Positions 5,718-21,228 of a stretch of 21,228 nt of DNA are shown here, one piece after another. The notes under the pieces are model-generated. The model was given only the letters and a program-made list of their open reading frames with translations, did not search any database and was not told the origin of the DNA. Position numbers and translations under genes: made by a program. Source of the stretch: Bacteroidetes bacterium UBA4408 (GTDB lineage Bacteria > Bacteroidota > Bacteroidia > UBA4408); NCBI GenBank assembly GCA_002389785.1, contig DGQS01000239.1:1-21228 (forward strand), read 5' to 3'. Position 1 is the stretch's first letter. Each line of letters begins with the position of its first letter.

Positions 5718-6323
5718 ATGAAATTAGCAGTATACAAATTGTGCAAAACATTCTTTGTTTTTGCACTTGTTTTAAACGGTTTATCGGTACTTGCACAAAC
5801 AGATACTATTGTGAAGAAACAACGTAAAGTTGATTCACTCATGTTAGATAATCCAAAGTATTACCTCATGCTTGACGGTATGGTTTACCAGTCGGCAGTT
5901 AGTGAAAATGGCAAACAAAAAGCCTTGGATTCTGTGATGATTCGTGTGCTAAATGAAACTGATTTTACAATGGATAAGCGGTTTACTAAGAAAGGAAGAT
6001 GTGCAATTAAATTGCCCTTGGGTAAAAAATACACTATTGAGTTTTCTAAGAAGGGGTATGTATCTAAAATTATTGGGGTAAATACAATTGTACCACGCTA
6101 CGACACTTTTGTTAGTGTGTTTCCATTTGATATTGATTTATTTCGAGAAGAACCTGAATTGGATGTAGCAGTTTTGAGCGAGCCTATCGCTAAAATCAAT
6201 TTCAACAATTTTAATAAAACCTTTGATTACGACTACAACTATACTGTGAAGGTGAATAACAATATTAAAAAGCTGTATGCCGAGTATTATCGACTTCAAA
6301 AGCTTAAAAAGGAAAAGAAGTAA
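5718..6323 (+). CDS. secreted carboxypeptidase-regulatory-like protein of unknown function
   Basis: A signal peptide of about 27 residues ends ...SVLAQ and is followed by a short charged linker. Residues about 50-135 look like a single transthyretin/CarboxypepD-regulatory-like beta-sandwich: LDGMVYQS, then ALDSVMIRVLNETD, then CAIKLPLGKKYTIEFSKKGYVSKIIGVNT. The 'KKYTIEFSKKGYVSK' strand is the most typical piece. Such domains are common in periplasmic or outer-membrane-associated Bacteroidota proteins, but this one has no TonB receptor or peptidase attached. The C-terminus is Asn/Tyr-rich and ends in a basic tail (LKKEKK). There is no T9SS sorting domain, so it is probably periplasmic. The specific role is unknown. 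The 143 bases downstream contain no feature I can support. Confidence 0.8.
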   Translation: MKLAVYKLCKTFFVFALVLNGLSVLAQTDTIVKKQRKVDSLMLDNPKYYLMLDGMVYQSAVSENGKQKALDSVMIRVLNETDFTMDKRFTKKGRCAIKLPLGKKYTIEFSKKGYVSKIIGVNTIVPRYDTFVSVFPFDIDLFREEPELDVAVLSEPIAKINFNNFNKTFDYDYNYTVKVNNNIKKLYAEYYRLQKLKKEKK

Positions 6324-6466: not shown

Positions 6467-9400
6467 ATGTTTTTTTCTACTAATTTTTTAAAAAGGTTAA
6501 TACTTATTACCCTGTTTGTAGTTTTTCAACTATACTCAAATAAATCTCAAGCTCAATATTGTATTGGCTCAAATTTAGGCGGTGGTGCCTGTGCTACCGG
6601 TCAACTAATTACCTCGGTACAAATTACCGGAACCAGTTTTTTGAGCAACAATACGATTTGCACCAGCGGTTCAAATGGCACCTTAACTACCATTGCACCA
6701 AGTGCTACAACCACTGCGGTTTTAAATCAAGGATCATCTTATAATTTAGGAGTTACAACCGATGCTGTAAACAATATTTCTGTGTGGATTGATTATGACC
6801 ATAACCTGATTTATGACGCCTATGAATGGACTGAAGTATGTACTACTTCAGTTGCCGGAGTCCCCAATTTTGCGGTTATAACTGTGCCGCAAGGAAGCTA
6901 TAATGGTACTACAGGAATGCGAATCCGCAGCCGACAGGCAGGTACCAACAATGGTGCTACGGATGCTTGCACTCAATTTGGTTCCGGCGAAACGGAAGAC
7001 TATACTGTTACCATTAGCGGTGGTGTTGCATGTACAGTACCACCCGTTGCTGGAATCGCGTTAAGTTCAGTTGTAGCTGCTTGTAGCGGTGTGAATTTTA
7101 CACTTTCACTATCCGGAAATTCTGTTGGAGTCGGATTAACCTACCAATGGCAGTTATCACAAAACAATAGTTCATGGACTTCAATTAGTGGAGCTACTTC
7201 AAGTATCTTAGTTACCTCTACAACCTTGCCATTATACTATCGATGTGTTTTAACTTGTTCCGGAAATTCAAGCGCTTCAAGCCCAGTTTATGTTGCCCTT
7301 AATTCAGCTTCCCAATGTTATTGTATATCGGCTGCAACAAATACTGCGGATGATGATATCGGGAACGTAACTTTTGGAAGTTTGAATAATGGAACGGCAA
7401 CCCCAGCACTCAATAATCCTACTTCCAATAAACTATATACTGATTTTACTTCCCTTACACCACAAAGCTTTTTACCCGGTAATACGTATTCTCTATCTGT
7501 AACTCAGATTAATATGGCTGGGTTTTATACGTGTTATTTGAATACGTATATTGATTATAATCAGGATGGTGACTTTTTAGATAATGGAGAATTAGTTTAC
7601 ACCGATACAACGAATGCTTCAGTTGGAGGTAACATCATGAATGGTAATGTAGTAATTCCATTTACTGCATTAAGTGGAACAACTCGAATGCGCTTTGTAT
7701 TATCAGAAGCAACTCCCGCAAGTTGTGGTTTATATACTTATGGCGAAACCGAAGACTATCTAATAACCATTCTTCCGGCCTTACCCTGTCCGGTACCTCC
7801 AAGTGCAGGCGCTGCAAGTTCAAGTCAAAGTTTGGTATGCTCTTCTCAATTTTTTACCCTACAACTAACCGGAAATTCAGCAGGAGTTGGTCAGGTATTT
7901 CAATGGCAAAATTCTACCAATGGAACTAATTGGACAAATCTGGTTGGAGCAAATTCTAATACTTATTCGTTAACGCAGAACCAAGCAAGTTACTACAGAT
8001 GTTATGTAACATGCAGCGGAAGCAGTGATACCAGTAACTCAATATCGGTTGGGATGAATTCCGTGACGTCTTGCTACTGTGCATCTTTTGCTAGCAATAC
8101 TGTTGATGACGATATTGGCAATGTTACTTTTGGTAGTTTATCGAATGGTACCAACACCACTGCCCTAAACAATAGCAGTTCGGTAAATACCTATACTGAT
8201 TTTACTTCCTTGCCTCCTCAATCGTTTACGCAAACTTTATCTTATCCGCTATCAATTACACAAATCAATAGTGCAGGTTTTTTTGCTTGTTGGGTAAGTG
8301 TTTTCATTGATTACAATCAGGATGGCGATTTTAGTGATGCAGGAGAACGAGTTTTTGATGCAGGAACTACAGCAGCAGTGGGAGGTAACATAGTATCAGG
8401 AACTGTTACAATTCCTTTGTCTGCAGCACCTGGAAATACCCGTATGCGAGTAATATTAGCTGAACAGGGAACCATTGCACAAACTGCATGTGCTACTTAC
8501 ACATGGGGTGAAACAGAAGATTATACCCTAACCATTATACCCATTGCACCTTGTACAACGCCGCCGGTTGCTGGTAATACAGTTAGCACCTCAAATGCTG
8601 TTTGCCCGCATGCTAACTTCACACTATCCTTATTAGGCAGTACAATAGGAACAGGCTTATCTTATCAATGGCAATCTTCCTCCGATGGAATAAACTGGAA
8701 TCTTATCGCAGGGGCGACTTCAGCTACCTACTCAACTTCTCAATTAAGTTCAACCTACTATCAATGTGAAGTTACCTGCAGTGGTGTTTCTGTAAATTCA
8801 AGTAGCTTGCTTGTTTCCATGGATGTTGCCTCTGGAACATTTTCAACCACCGCCGGAGGAGCAATTCCGGATAACAATTTTGCCGTATGTTTCCCGATTG
8901 TAGTTTCTGGATTACCTTCAGTAATTGATACATCATTCGGGGTGATGGAAGTATGTATAGATATTCAACATCCTGAAGTAGGAGAATTAAAAGTATTTTT
9001 AAAATCACCCATTGGCGACACTGTTTATTTGAGTCAAAATAACGGTGGATTATTTGCCAACTACAGCAATACTTGTTTCGCTATGAATGGTGCTAATGGA
9101 TACATTTATGCGGCCAATGCTCCGTTTACCGGAACCTTCATTCCTAATTTTTCACTTAACGATTTTAATAACGGACAAAACCCAAATGGAACCTGGAATT
9201 TATGTGTAATCGATGAAGCCCCGTCTGTTACCCCTCCTGGAAATTTTATTACTGCATCTATTTCGTTTTGCACCAACCCTCCGGCAGATCCTCCTATTCC
9301 TGTAGGTGCTTGCAGTGGCTCAAATGCATTTGCTTGCCAGTGTCCTGATGGAACTCAAAACTGTGATTTATTGCCGGATATGACTGCCAGCGCATTGATT

Positions 9401-10591
9401 ATACAAAACGATCATCCTGAATCATTAGGAGCAATGCGCTTAAGTAATGCTACTCCGAATATTGGCTGGGGACCTATGGAAATACATGGTTCAAACCAGT
9501 GTTTTTGTGATACAGTTTCAGTATCCTGCAGCACTACCATTTGTCCCAACGGTCAACCGGTAAAGGAGTTAGTTAAACAAACCATTTATCACAAAAATCA
9601 TGGTGTTATGACCAGTTCGGTGCGGGATGCAGGTTTTATGAGTTTTCATCCTACACATGGACACGTGCATGTTGATTCTTGGGGAGCATTTAGTTTGCGA
9701 ATTCCAACTTCAAATCCGGACGCAACTACTTGGCCTATTGTTGGAACCGGCGCGAAAGTTAGTTTTTGTTTAATCAATTTAGGAAATTGTACCAATAATT
9801 TAGGTTATTGCCTGGATAATACCGGAAATGTAATTACCATGGCCGATATACCGAATTCAGGTTTTGGAAGTGTTACTGGGTGTGGTACAGATCAGGGGAT
9901 TTTTACCGGAAATTTGGATATTTACTCTTCCGGTCTAGCAGGAATGCAAATTGATTTTCCGGGAACTTGCAACGGCAATTATGCCATTGTTTCGATTACC
10001 GATCCCAACAATAATTTTTTAGAACAAGATGAAACGAATAATTGGGTGCAGGTTCCTGTAACTTTAACACAGCAATTCCCACCTTCAGGTATAACTTCTT
10101 TTGCTTATAATGCCTCGGGTAATACTGTGTCATTTACCAACACAACACCACTAAGTTCAGGTTATTTATGGGATTTTGGAGATGGAACAACCGATACTAC
10201 CACTAATCCTGTACATACTTATAGTGGTAACGGACCTTATACAGTAAAACTCATAGCAATTAATCAATGCTATACAGCTTCAACCCAAACAGTTTTGATA
10301 ACAGGTGTTAAAGAAGTCGTTAATTTTGCAACTGGCTTTAGTGCAAATCCTAATCCGAGCACAGGTGAGATTGGTATTTCCTATTATTTACCAAACAGCG
10401 AACAAGTGCAAATTGAACTTTACAATTTGCTTGGTGAGCAGGTAAAAGAGTTGGTAAATACAAAACAAGAGGCAGGAAAGCAAGTCTTGAAACGTAATTT
10501 TAAGGCCGATGGTATTGTTGCCGGCACCTATTTATTAAAACTCACTGTTTCAGGTAATACGCAAACTTTGCGTATAGTTTTGCTTAATTAA
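6467..10591 (+). CDS. T9SS-secreted multidomain protein with lysyl-oxidase-like domain
   Basis: A 1374-residue extracellular protein. Modules in order: signal peptide (1-30, ...SQAQ); GEVED module (31-185); Ig-like (189-283); GEVED (284-437); Ig-like (441-535); GEVED (536-692); Ig-like (696-788); a P-domain-like beta-sandwich (789-935, including ELKVFLKSPIGD and NPNGTWNLCVID); a lysyl-oxidase-like domain (about 969-1205); PKD (1211-1280, YLWDFGDGTTD); and a T9SS type A sorting domain (about 1290-1374, NPNPSTGE...AGTYLLKL). The oxidase segment has H1061 and H1064-G-H-V-H1068, matching the HxxHxHxH copper site of human LOX. It also has K1097 in AKVSFCL and Y1153 in GNLDIY, aligning with the cofactor Lys and Tyr. 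Amine oxidation or cross-linking outside the cell is inferred. The next gene, 59 bases downstream, shares its modules. Confidence 0.88.
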   Translation: MFFSTNFLKRLILITLFVVFQLYSNKSQAQYCIGSNLGGGACATGQLITSVQITGTSFLSNNTICTSGSNGTLTTIAPSATTTAVLNQGSSYNLGVTTDAVNNISVWIDYDHNLIYDAYEWTEVCTTSVAGVPNFAVITVPQGSYNGTTGMRIRSRQAGTNNGATDACTQFGSGETEDYTVTISGGVACTVPPVAGIALSSVVAACSGVNFTLSLSGNSVGVGLTYQWQLSQNNSSWTSISGATSSILVTSTTLPLYYRCVLTCSGNSSASSPVYVALNSASQCYCISAATNTADDDIGNVTFGSLNNGTATPALNNPTSNKLYTDFTSLTPQSFLPGNTYSLSVTQINMAGFYTCYLNTYIDYNQDGDFLDNGELVYTDTTNASVGGNIMNGNVVIPFTALSGTTRMRFVLSEATPASCGLYTYGETEDYLITILPALPCPVPPSAGAASSSQSLVCSSQFFTLQLTGNSAGVGQVFQWQNSTNGTNWTNLVGANSNTYSLTQNQASYYRCYVTCSGSSDTSNSISVGMNSVTSCYCASFASNTVDDDIGNVTFGSLSNGTNTTALNNSSSVNTYTDFTSLPPQSFTQTLSYPLSITQINSAGFFACWVSVFIDYNQDGDFSDAGERVFDAGTTAAVGGNIVSGTVTIPLSAAPGNTRMRVILAEQGTIAQTACATYTWGETEDYTLTIIPIAPCTTPPVAGNTVSTSNAVCPHANFTLSLLGSTIGTGLSYQWQSSSDGINWNLIAGATSATYSTSQLSSTYYQCEVTCSGVSVNSSSLLVSMDVASGTFSTTAGGAIPDNNFAVCFPIVVSGLPSVIDTSFGVMEVCIDIQHPEVGELKVFLKSPIGDTVYLSQNNGGLFANYSNTCFAMNGANGYIYAANAPFTGTFIPNFSLNDFNNGQNPNGTWNLCVIDEAPSVTPPGNFITASISFCTNPPADPPIPVGACSGSNAFACQCPDGTQNCDLLPDMTASALIIQNDHPESLGAMRLSNATPNIGWGPMEIHGSNQCFCDTVSVSCSTTICPNGQPVKELVKQTIYHKNHGVMTSSVRDAGFMSFHPTHGHVHVDSWGAFSLRIPTSNPDATTWPIVGTGAKVSFCLINLGNCTNNLGYCLDNTGNVITMADIPNSGFGSVTGCGTDQGIFTGNLDIYSSGLAGMQIDFPGTCNGNYAIVSITDPNNNFLEQDETNNWVQVPVTLTQQFPPSGITSFAYNASGNTVSFTNTTPLSSGYLWDFGDGTTDTTTNPVHTYSGNGPYTVKLIAINQCYTASTQTVLITGVKEVVNFATGFSANPNPSTGEIGISYYLPNSEQVQIELYNLLGEQVKELVNTKQEAGKQVLKRNFKADGIVAGTYLLKLTVSGNTQTLRIVLLN
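7031..8551 (+). repeat. tandem Ig-like + GEVED coding repeat (two units)
   Basis: Two consecutive units, 7031-7786 and 7787-8551 (252 and 255 codons), each encode an Ig-like module and then a GEVED module opening with CYC and DDDIGNVTFGSL and closing with GETEDY. A third Ig-like module follows at 8552-8828. Protein similarity is high while the DNA differs at many third positions (for example around 7351-7392 compared with 8105-8148). This suggests an old in-gene duplication kept by selection, not recent slippage. Confidence 0.85.
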
Positions 10592-10640: not shown

Positions 10641-10668
10641 TCTACAATTAATGAATAATAATAAACCT

Positions 10669-12285
10669 ATGAAAAAAACAATCCTTACATTTTGCTTAAT
10701 TTTTAGTAGTTTTTTTGTACAAACTACATTTGCTCAAACAACCCACTTTACTGAAAATTTTGGAACCGCAGCTTTACCTGCCGGATGGTCAAACGACAGT
10801 ATGGGTTTGCCTGCGTTGAATCTTTGGATATTCAATAATCAATATAACCGTACCATAACCGGAGCAGGTTTTGATGCTAATTTTGCTATTTTTGATAGCG
10901 ACGAAGGGAGCACGAATGACAATATAGATGAGAACGCTTCATTAACTAGCCCTGCTATTAATATAGCTGCTGCAACGGGTGTGCTATCACTTGAGTTTGA
11001 TGAGCAATACCGTGCATTAGCCGGTCCTAATACACAAGGCTCATCCCGAAGAGTTGAAATAACCTCCGATGGAGGTATTACTTGGAATACACTTGTGTTT
11101 GATTCATTGAATGTTGGATACCCTAATCCTGCAACGCATACTGCAATAAACATAAGTTCAAGTTTAGGAGCGACTAATATTCAAGTTCGATTTACTTATA
11201 CCGGAAGCTATGATTGGTGGTGGGCAATTGATAATGTAACGATAAAATCTTTCCCAGGTTGTACAACTGCGCCGAATGCAGGAAGCACGATCGCTAGTGC
11301 AGCTTCAGTTTGTTCAGGAGTAAATTTCACACTTTCCCTAGCAGGCGCTGACTCAGGAATTGTTATTTCATACCAATGGCAATCTTCACCAGATTCAATA
11401 AACTGGACTTCAATTTCTTCAGCCATTGCACCAACTTTAACTACTTCAACTACGGTTGCAACTTACTATCGTTGTGTGTTAACTTGCAGTGGATTTTCGG
11501 CAAACTCACTTCCGGTGCATCTTACTATCTTATCCCCTTCACTTTGTTATTGTACAGCAAACCTAGGAGGATCTGGATGTCCTTCAACTGATATTATAAG
11601 AAATGTTAGTTTTGCAGGAACCACCTTAAACAATACCGACACAATTTGCAATTTTATTAATGGTAGTACTTTAAGTGCGTTTTCTCCTGTTGGATCTGCT
11701 ACAGCTACATTGACCCGTGGTAATTCATATACCTTGAGTGTAACTACCACTTCAAATAATATTATTTCTGTTTGGATTGACTACAATCAGAATGGAATTT
11801 ACGAACCAAATGAATGGAACCAAGTATCAACTACTTCAACGGCAGGAGTTGCTAATACCATAAATGTGAACATTCCTTTTGGTATTCCTGGAGGTCAAAC
11901 CGGAATGCGAATTAGAAGCAGAGCAAACGGTAATACCAATGATTCAACATCGGCTTGTATCAATTTTGGTTCTGGTGAAACGGAAGATTATACAGTAACC
12001 ATTGATATTGGAACAGGCATTAGTAATGTTAGTAATAATTTCACTTTAACTGTTGTGCCCAACCCAGCTAATGCGTTTTTGAGTATTAATATAAATGGAA
12101 CACAAGCTGAAACGGCTGAATTAAAATTAATAAATGTACAAGGTCAATTGGTTTTCAGCGAATTGGTTCAATGCGCTGGAAAATACACTAAAACGCTTGA
12201 TGTTACGACCTTTGCGAAAGGTATCTACACCTTGCAAATGATTGGTTCAAGTGGAGTAATCAATAAAAAGGTTGTGATAGAATAA
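10669..12285 (+). CDS. T9SS-secreted protein: choice-of-anchor-J-like, Ig-like and GEVED modules
   Basis: A 538-residue extracellular protein. The signal peptide spans 1-23 (MKKTILTF...TTFAQ). Residues about 24-195 form a jelly-roll of the choice-of-anchor J / cleaved-adhesin type: FTENFGTAALPAGWSND at the start, SLTSPAINI and RVEITSDGGITWNTL in the middle, and YDWWWAIDNVTI at the end. An Ig-like module follows (198-292, SYQWQSSPDSINW ... YYRCVLTCSG), then a GEVED module (293-445, ISVWIDYNQNGIYEPNEWNQV ... GSGETEDYTV) and a T9SS type A sorting domain (about 460-538, VVPNPANAFLSINI ... KGIYTLQM). An ATG at 10651 would add six residues; ATG 10669 gives a better signal peptide and leader. Adhesion or glycan binding is likely but inferred. 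It may share a substrate or location with the upstream lysyl-oxidase-like protein. Confidence 0.88.
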   Translation: MKKTILTFCLIFSSFFVQTTFAQTTHFTENFGTAALPAGWSNDSMGLPALNLWIFNNQYNRTITGAGFDANFAIFDSDEGSTNDNIDENASLTSPAINIAAATGVLSLEFDEQYRALAGPNTQGSSRRVEITSDGGITWNTLVFDSLNVGYPNPATHTAINISSSLGATNIQVRFTYTGSYDWWWAIDNVTIKSFPGCTTAPNAGSTIASAASVCSGVNFTLSLAGADSGIVISYQWQSSPDSINWTSISSAIAPTLTTSTTVATYYRCVLTCSGFSANSLPVHLTILSPSLCYCTANLGGSGCPSTDIIRNVSFAGTTLNNTDTICNFINGSTLSAFSPVGSATATLTRGNSYTLSVTTTSNNIISVWIDYNQNGIYEPNEWNQVSTTSTAGVANTINVNIPFGIPGGQTGMRIRSRANGNTNDSTSACINFGSGETEDYTVTIDIGTGISNVSNNFTLTVVPNPANAFLSININGTQAETAELKLINVQGQLVFSELVQCAGKYTKTLDVTTFAKGIYTLQMIGSSGVINKKVVIE

Positions 12286-19111: not shown

Positions 19112-21228
19112 TTAATTAAGTATTACCTTTTTAGTAAGCACTTGCTTATCACTAATGAATTGAACAAAGTAAATTCCACGAGCCAAGTCGTTTACATTTA
19201 ATTTGTGTGAATAGCTTCCTTTGAATTTATCGTTGCTTTCGGTATAAATCACTCTTCCCTCAGGATTCATGAGTTTTATTTGCAAACTTTTTGCTTCTTC
19301 CGAATGGTATTCAAGGGTTACAAATCCCGATGCAGGGTTTGGATAAATGCGTACATTTTTATCGTTGCTCAGTTCCTTACCGGTTGAAATAGCTTCCACA
19401 ATGTTTACATAATAATCTTCAGTTTCACCGCTACCGTAATTGGTGCAGGCATCAGCACCTAAGTTTATGTTTCCGGCTTTACGTGAACGTACACGCATAC
19501 CGGTTGCGCCCAGTTGAGCGCTGGCAGGCAATACCAAAGGCACAGTGGTAGTTACAGCTGAATCAGTTGCCTGACTAACTTGTATCCATTCGTTGGCATC
19601 AAAAGTTCCGCTTTGGTCATAATCTAACCAAACAGAAATGTTACACGAACCCGAAGTTTTTACATACAAATCGAAGTAGTTTCCACGACCCAAATCTGCA
19701 GTTGTATTTCCGTTTATTGGATATTTTGAATAAGCAAATCCTGCATTGGCAGCGCAGCCTGTGTTGGCATTGTTAAAGGTAGTACCTCCAATGGCTAATG
19801 AATCAATAAAATAATCGGTGCTGCAGTTTCCGCTGATGCTTGAATTGCAATAATCACACTGTGTTACAGGCTTGTTCATTACCTTGGTAGCAACAGAGCT
19901 TTCCGTGGTTCCACCATTGCAGGTAACGTTGCAACGATACCATGAATTAAAGCTTTGCGAACCGCTGTAAATTTGAACGGTAGCACCTGCTATGTTGTTC
20001 CAGTTAATACTATCGAATGATTGTTGCCACTGAAAAGTAAAACCGGTATCGGGAGGCAAGCTATCAAGCGATAAAGTAAAGATATCCGAAGCACACACCA
20101 AATTTGAATTTGTTTTAGCAAACCCTGCAATGAAAGGAACTGTGCAAGAGTTAGGAGCTAAAATATTGATGAGGTAATCTTCAGTTTCACCCCAGGTATA
20201 GGTTCCGCAAGGTTGAGCAGCTGGATTGGCACCTTCTTTCAATACTACACGCATGGCAGTAACACCGGTTGCTGCCGTTAAAGGAATGGTTAAAGTTCCG
20301 CTAATGGTAGTATTTCCGGCCGATGTAGTACCACTCAAAACCGATTCGGTTGAAGGGTCAAAAGTTCCATCGTGGTCAAAATCAATAAAAATAGCTCCGC
20401 TGCACACGTAAAATCCATTCAAATTAATTTGTGTCATCGACATAGGATAGGTCAATGTTTGAATGTAGCTATAGGGAGGTAAATTGGTAAAGTCGGAGTA
20501 AGTATTTACAGAAGTTGGATTTTGAGTAGAAGGACTAGCCACCCCGTTATTCAACAAACCAAAAGTTACATTTCCAATATCGTCGTCGCCGGTGCTGGTA
20601 GCGCCACTGGTGCAGTAGCAGCTAAAGAATGAATTTAGTCCAACTAAAACAGGAGTAGAGTTAGATTGAATTCCGCTGCAGGTAACCACACAACGATAAT
20701 AAGTTGCTACTACTTGAGCATAGGAATATAAAATAGAAGTAGCTCCAATGATATCGGTCCAGGTAGTACCGTTGCTCGATTCTTGCCATTGATAAGTAAG
20801 TCCGGAAGCATTTGCACTACCGCTTAAGTTTAAATCAAAAGGTGCATTGGGACAAACTGACGGTGCCGAGCTAACAGCTGTACCAGCCACTGGGGGTGTA
20901 GCACAAGGTAGCGGAGTTTGAATGTCAACTATGTAATCTTCGGTTTCACCATTAAAATAAGTGCCACAAGGTGTTACGGTATTAAAAGTTCCTTCAACCA
21001 GCACTACACGCATACCGGTAAGTCCGTTTAATGCAGTAAGCGGAATGGTAATAACACCACTCACTACATTTCCCCCTTGGTTAGCAGTTGTTTGGTTTGA
21101 AAAAACTTCTTCGGTTGCCGGGTCATAAATACCGTTTTGATTGTAATCGATATACGCTTTTACATTGCAGGCATTAAAATTAAACTGGCTGATTTGCGTA
21201 ATTGAAATAGGATAATTAATACCCTGTA
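19112..21228 (-). CDS. T9SS-secreted GEVED/Ig-like repeat protein (N-terminus cut by window edge)
   Basis: The frame is open to the right edge, so the 5' end is missing; GTG 21064 is inside a module and is not a start. The 705 visible residues encode: the end of a GEVED module (21228 to about 20910, AYIDYNQNGIYDP ... GETEDYIVDI); an Ig-like module (from 20905); GEVED (from 20620, DDDIGNVTFG ... GETEDYLINI); an Ig-like module (from 20146); a second-type GEVED (19858 to about 19390, ISVWLDYDQSGTFDANEWIQV ... GSGETEDYYV); and a T9SS type A sorting domain (about 19390-19112, IYPNPASGFVTLEY ... RGIYFVQFI). No catalytic domain is seen in the visible part. It is related module by module to the two cargo genes 7-9 kb away, but lies on the opposite strand. 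It is probably a surface or released adhesin-like protein. Confidence 0.88.
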   Translation of the reverse strand, partial: QGINYPISITQISQFNFNACNVKAYIDYNQNGIYDPATEEVFSNQTTANQGGNVVSGVITIPLTALNGLTGMRVVLVEGTFNTVTPCGTYFNGETEDYIVDIQTPLPCATPPVAGTAVSSAPSVCPNAPFDLNLSGSANASGLTYQWQESSNGTTWTDIIGATSILYSYAQVVATYYRCVVTCSGIQSNSTPVLVGLNSFFSCYCTSGATSTGDDDIGNVTFGLLNNGVASPSTQNPTSVNTYSDFTNLPPYSYIQTLTYPMSMTQINLNGFYVCSGAIFIDFDHDGTFDPSTESVLSGTTSAGNTTISGTLTIPLTAATGVTAMRVVLKEGANPAAQPCGTYTWGETEDYLINILAPNSCTVPFIAGFAKTNSNLVCASDIFTLSLDSLPPDTGFTFQWQQSFDSINWNNIAGATVQIYSGSQSFNSWYRCNVTCNGGTTESSVATKVMNKPVTQCDYCNSSISGNCSTDYFIDSLAIGGTTFNNANTGCAANAGFAYSKYPINGNTTADLGRGNYFDLYVKTSGSCNISVWLDYDQSGTFDANEWIQVSQATDSAVTTTVPLVLPASAQLGATGMRVRSRKAGNINLGADACTNYGSGETEDYYVNIVEAISTGKELSNDKNVRIYPNPASGFVTLEYHSEEAKSLQIKLMNPEGRVIYTESNDKFKGSYSHKLNVNDLARGIYFVQFISDKQVLTKKVILN

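Follow-up and report, generated by a model that had tools for sequence, protein, structure and literature searches.

A divergent lysyl oxidase domain with conserved predicted active-site residues in a type IX secretion cargo protein of Bacteroidota

The DNA analyzed here (the window) is the whole 21,228-nucleotide stretch of contig DGQS01000239.1 from Bacteroidetes bacterium UBA4408. On its forward strand, at 6467..10591, lies an open reading frame encoding a protein of 1374 amino acids, a multi-domain cargo protein of the type IX secretion system (T9SS) that contains a lysyl oxidase (LOX)-like domain. Pfam searches with the whole protein identified GEVED (three stretches), P-domain, PKD and Por_Secre_tail matches, with the lysyl oxidase profile, PF01186, remaining below its cut-off. 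The P-domain is directly N-terminal to the LOX-like domain, which was found where the original prediction had placed it (9371..10060), but with slightly wider limits, at about 9311-10081. The features of the gene, including the residues predicted to form the lysyl-tyrosyl-quinone (LTQ) cofactor, are as follows.

6467..6553 (+): probable Sec signal peptide, residues 1-29, judged by eye from the translation
8294..8533 (+): best of the three GEVED stretches, residues 610-689 (PF20009, E 4e-52)
8948..9226 (+): proprotein convertase P-domain, residues 828-920 (PF01483, 31.9 bits against a cut-off of 21)
9311..10081 (+): LOX-like domain, residues ~949-1205, from sequence profiles and predicted fold
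9647..9670 (+): copper-site motif HPTHGHVH, with H1061, H1064, H1066 and H1068, read from the DNA
9755..9757 (+): K1097, predicted LTQ lysine, within GAKVSFCL and in register with LOXL2
9923..9925 (+): Y1153, predicted LTQ tyrosine, within GNLDIYSS and in register with LOXL2
10112..10297 (+): PKD domain, residues 1216-1277 (PF00801, 30.4 bits; PF18911, 52.8 bits)
10349..10579 (+): T9SS type A sorting domain, residues 1295-1371 (TIGR04183, PF18962)

The C-terminal sorting domain scored above the cut-off with both profiles (TIGR04183, 39.4 bits versus 23; PF18962, 30.4 versus 27), in agreement with the earlier description of the protein as T9SS cargo, and a search of its own genome that covered SprA identified this T9SS translocon gene (SprA_N, E 1.2e-149). 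As judged from sequence, the protein thus carries the sorting signal of T9SS cargo in a genome with SprA. The T9SS tail profile yielded 150 matches, with 150 of 216 candidates scored; in the control set it matched 2 of 14 genomes, one of them above the cut-off.

Lysyl oxidase homology and the predicted active site

The isolated domain scored 22.6 bits against PF01186 (E 8.9e-5), above the Pfam gathering cut-off of 20.4 bits; in the genome scan with the same profile, the corresponding piece scored 19.5 bits, and 24 together with its in-frame neighbours, which was marked as above cut-off. Searches of the PDB with two family profiles, A1, which includes the PKD part, and A3, confined to the LOX domain, both matched human LOXL2 (E 3.7e-7 and 9.7e-8, respectively), the significant aligned stretch being in each case the one bearing the tyrosine. 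Foldseek identified the LOXL2 structure 5ze3 (E 1e-6), the predicted fold is that of the LOX catalytic domain, with 23% identity to LOXL2 across 164 aligned residues, and H1064, H1066, H1068, K1097 and Y1153 also align with PF01186-annotated LOX. On the combined basis of sequence profiles and predicted fold, residues ~949-1205 constitute a true, divergent lysyl oxidase domain.

All the residues named in the original prediction, that is, the four histidines, K1097 and Y1153, were found at their positions when read from the DNA. The H-x-x-H-x-H-x-H spacing of HPTHGHVH equals that of the human LOX copper motif, WEWHSCHQHYHSMD, as given in PMC4448552, which also reports K320 and Y355 as the human LTQ residues. 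H1064, H1066 and H1068 correspond to the core histidines (human H292, H294 and H296), with a LOXL2 alignment that is weak over that stretch; K1097 is aligned with the lysine of LOXL2 KASFCL (human K320), in a stretch likewise weak on its own, and Y1153 with the LOXL2 tyrosine (human Y355) inside the significant stretch. The distance from lysine to tyrosine is 56 residues here versus 35 in human LOX.

Conservation of these residues was assessed in three sets of sequences. In a 122-row set of close relatives, composed of the query, all 120 listed matches (among them the protein of the window itself, P0001) and a paralog, the four histidines, K1097 and Y1153 were each present in 122/122 rows. A second set comprised 87 matches, all with a domain match and many of them fragments, so that counts refer to the rows covering each position: the core histidines were kept in 76/76, K1097 in 70/70, Y1153 in 61/61 and H1061 in 73/76, and 54 of the 56 rows covering all six positions read HHHHKY. 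The three exceptions at H1061, two Asp and one Asn, occur in the window-type sequences P0127, P0160 and P0168 (DRDHGHTH, DTDHGHTH and NPAHQHTH). Work cited in PMC4448552 describes the first histidine as dispensable for copper binding or activity, a description that agrees with the three replacements seen among 76 rows here. Among 85 locus domains, K1097 and Y1153 were both conserved in 85/85 and H1061 in 83/85, with other residues in L004 (K) and L005 (Q), both outside the window clade; the histidine counts in this third set are uninformative, since 81 of the 85 came from a scan whose search pattern itself requires all four histidines. The HHHHKY combination was also read in the paralog L001, in L106 and in four loci that a profile search recovered from further genomes of the class (L089, L090, L092 and L093). 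No member of any of the three sets showed a replaced core histidine, lysine or tyrosine. At the level of sequence, the full histidine, lysine and tyrosine set of the LOX site is therefore kept under strict conservation.

Several observations speak against an exported LOX-type enzyme at this locus. The whole protein reached only 17.2 bits with PF01186, below the gathering cut-off. The stretch with the histidines and the lysine is weak on its own against LOXL2 (6.6 bits with A1, 4.8 with A3), and the Foldseek overlay with 5ze3 fits poorly (TMq 0.42, rmsd 12.3). No counterpart exists here for the cysteine of the human copper motif or for the pair of cysteines that flank the LOXL2 tyrosine motif. 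Finally, K1043 and Y1172, taken as controls, are also invariant (122/122), so that K1097 and Y1153 are not set apart by their invariance alone; of the remaining residues in the 122 rows, the other two lysines are kept in 62 and 95, and the other tyrosines in 115, 11 and 8.

Two alternative explanations bear on these results. The first is a chance resemblance on a CARDB-like beta-sandwich that is no LOX at all, which would agree with the whole-protein score and with a single-sequence phmmer search of the domain against the PDB that gave no match at E up to 1, LOXL2 being reached by profiles only. This explanation is very unlikely given the predicted fold, the alignment with PF01186-annotated LOX and the A3 match to LOXL2. 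The second is an inactive LOX-fold module, in which the histidine cluster would hold a structural metal and the domain would merely serve as a binding or spacer part of a surface protein. A structural role does not explain the lysine and the tyrosine, which are never replaced in the covered rows (122/122, 85/85, 70/70 and 61/61), and of the four lysines in A3 none but K1097 is invariant, K1043 being kept in 30/35; we consider an inactive module improbable. Homology to LOX, the predicted fold, the site residues and the export signal support the proposal of an exported, possibly active amine or protein-lysine oxidase. The protein is probably an exported LOX-type copper/LTQ amine oxidase, whose binding of copper, formation of LTQ, catalytic activity and substrate are assigned by analogy with the LOX family.

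Distribution, phylogeny and gene neighbourhood

A contig scan of genomes confirmed 192 relatives; the titles of the 80 that were kept (L009-L088) name Bacteroidota groups, except L053 ("uncultured bacterium"). The class was sampled with 198 genomes, of which 46, own genome included, matched A3 at E up to 1e-5, 39 of them at E of 1e-80 or better and 7 with weak partial matches only. A count of 115/198 obtained with A1 was rejected as an over-count, as A1 holds the PKD part, and A3 was used instead. PF01186 matched 58 of the same 198 genomes, 57 above the cut-off, for the window type often over the last third of the profile only. Among 395 genomes drawn evenly from the phylum, 7 matched, 4 above the cut-off, which suggests a concentration of the gene in a portion of this phylum. 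Among the 120 matches listed, precomputed domains include PF01186 in 6 and the P-domain PF01483 in 106; most are unnamed and no given name says lysyl oxidase, whereas 3 of the 87 second-set matches (P0144, P0154, P0164) are so named. The clade is widespread and seldom named as LOX. The window's own genome (G000) encodes a second LOX-like T9SS protein, the paralog L001 (contig C96, L001:1105-3192), whose 695 amino acids comprise an N-terminal LOX domain, scoring 44.1 bits with PF01186, above the cut-off, and a T9SS tail; the two LOX domains are 45-46% identical.

In a tree of 54 rows (LG+C20, midpoint root as drawn, no animal rows), the 36 window-type rows, L106 included, form one clade (support 99/97), which splits into the window's branch of 20 rows (99/97) and a 16-row branch with L001 (93/92). 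Next to this clade stand L004 and L005 (97/86), followed by P0207 on a long branch of unsure placement. Of 19 further LOX sequences whose motif can be read, P0207 is the only one with the first histidine. The 2015 survey by Grau-Bove et al. describes the first histidine as not present in its bacterial sequences (PMC4448552); this does not hold for the window clade, in which H1061 is conserved (e.g. 122/122), making the clade an exception to the published absence. By eye, L005:529-1926, outside the window clade, shows a P-domain-like stretch ahead of its LOX domain; the pairing of both domains may therefore predate the clade. The class also contains a second LOX type (L003, L097-L105) on a separate branch, with a C-H-x-H-x-H motif without the first histidine, open frames of ~780-1240 codons and PF01186 matches well above the cut-off (~1e-24 to 1e-34).

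The neighbourhood of the LOX gene was analyzed by comparing the 15 other genes of the window with 92 other loci, many of them with short flanks (blastp, E up to 1e-8, open reading frames of at least 80 amino acids). Besides an Fe/Mn superoxide dismutase (SOD) gene ~5 kb from the LOX gene, the relevant neighbours are:

5718-6323 (+): 201-aa protein with a signal-peptide-like start, immediately upstream of the LOX gene
10651-12285 (+): GEVED-domain T9SS cargo with a Reelin-subrepeat match below cut-off, 59 bases 3' of the LOX gene
19112-21064 (-): GEVED T9SS cargo with three GEVED stretches

The LOX protein itself was matched in 88 of the 92 loci. Homologues of the GEVED cargo at 10651 were found in 4, of the GEVED protein at 19112 in 6 and of the SOD in 2, and the other twelve genes had no match in these often short-flanked loci. 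The cargo at 10651-12285 is a possible operon partner of the LOX gene, albeit with matches in only those 4 loci. The 201-aa protein, without Pfam match or match in the 92 loci, contains 14% lysine and has a lysine-rich C-terminus; it was considered as a LOX substrate and dropped as unsupported.

Proposed function and comparison with known lysyl oxidases

In the mechanism that we propose, Sec and then the T9SS would carry the protein out of the cell, three or four histidines would bind copper, and copper together with O2 would turn Y1153 and K1097 into LTQ. At or outside the cell surface, the mature enzyme would oxidize primary amines, whether in peptidyl lysine or in small molecules, to aldehydes, releasing H2O2 and NH3, with the P-, GEVED and PKD domains acting as binding or spacer modules. 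The aldehydes would most likely serve to cross-link or modify proteins of the surface or matrix. The step to surface-protein cross-linking is the bolder part of this proposal and is advanced here tentatively, with small-amine oxidation or peroxide release nearly as likely.

The latter possibility envisages an active enzyme that would serve amine feeding or detoxification, or would direct H2O2 against competitors. It is favored by the archaeal HTU-LOX of Haloterrigena turkmenica, which shows relaxed specificity for many small amines, aminoglycosides and polymyxin (PMC6452851), by the SOD gene nearby, albeit with homologues in just 2 of 92 other loci, and by the lack, among those loci, of any conserved partner gene that might hint at a substrate, which adds to the points raised above against the proposed enzyme. 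Conversely, HTU-LOX also oxidizes lysine-containing polypeptides (PMC6452851), and the P-, GEVED and PKD domains and the T9SS tail suggest, indirectly, an enzyme acting at the cell surface or on large molecules. That a large, seldom recognized family of T9SS-exported LOX cross-links Bacteroidota surface or matrix proteins via allysine, with an animal-like four-histidine copper site, is a more daring proposal that we regard as rather unlikely in its entirety.

Lysyl oxidases are known for building collagen and elastin networks via lysine oxidation. The analysis reported here describes a widespread bacterial clade with a LOX domain tied to outer-surface export and with its catalytic residues kept, in which the role of LOX without collagen would become testable in surface-living bacteria. 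Because a surface-export protein keeps the known LOX active-site residues, bacteria of this kind may chemically harden or modify extracellular proteins. LOX in Bacteroidetes has been published since 2015 (PMC4448552). No prior description of a T9SS link, of the P-domain/LOX architecture or of a four-histidine bacterial clade was found in the open-licence literature, where the sole paper to combine "lysyl oxidase" with "type IX secretion" is a P. gingivalis oral-cancer review (PMC12607439); to that extent, the three features are new.

The second LOX type of the same class resembles the window protein in placing its LOX domain in long proteins, and differs in its missing first histidine and separate branch. 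Prokaryotic LOX surveyed in PMC4448552, Bacteroidetes included, have the same three core histidines, lysine and tyrosine; most of them consist, by that account, of the LOX domain alone and the bacterial ones are without the first histidine, whereas the window protein is multi-domain T9SS cargo and its type retains this residue (122/122 and 73/76 covered rows). HTU-LOX, as described in PMC6452851, belongs to the same family, has the three conserved histidines, lysine and tyrosine and is active in vitro, its truncated form after refolding with copper and with inhibition by 3-aminopropionitrile. The same source reports no activity for the full-length protein or cultured cells, a further point against the activity proposed here, and calls the native function cryptic. 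Compared with human LOXL2/LOX (PF01186; 5ze3), the window domain has no cysteines in the copper motif or around the tyrosine motif and a longer lysine-tyrosine stretch, and the protein has other flanking domains and T9SS export; shared are the predicted fold, H-x-x-H-x-H-x-H including the first histidine, the lysine in K-x-x-F-C-L and the tyrosine in Q-G-I-x-x-G-x-x-D-x-Y. Should the proposal be true, T9SS-exported LOX would be a bacterial counterpart of animal matrix cross-linking.
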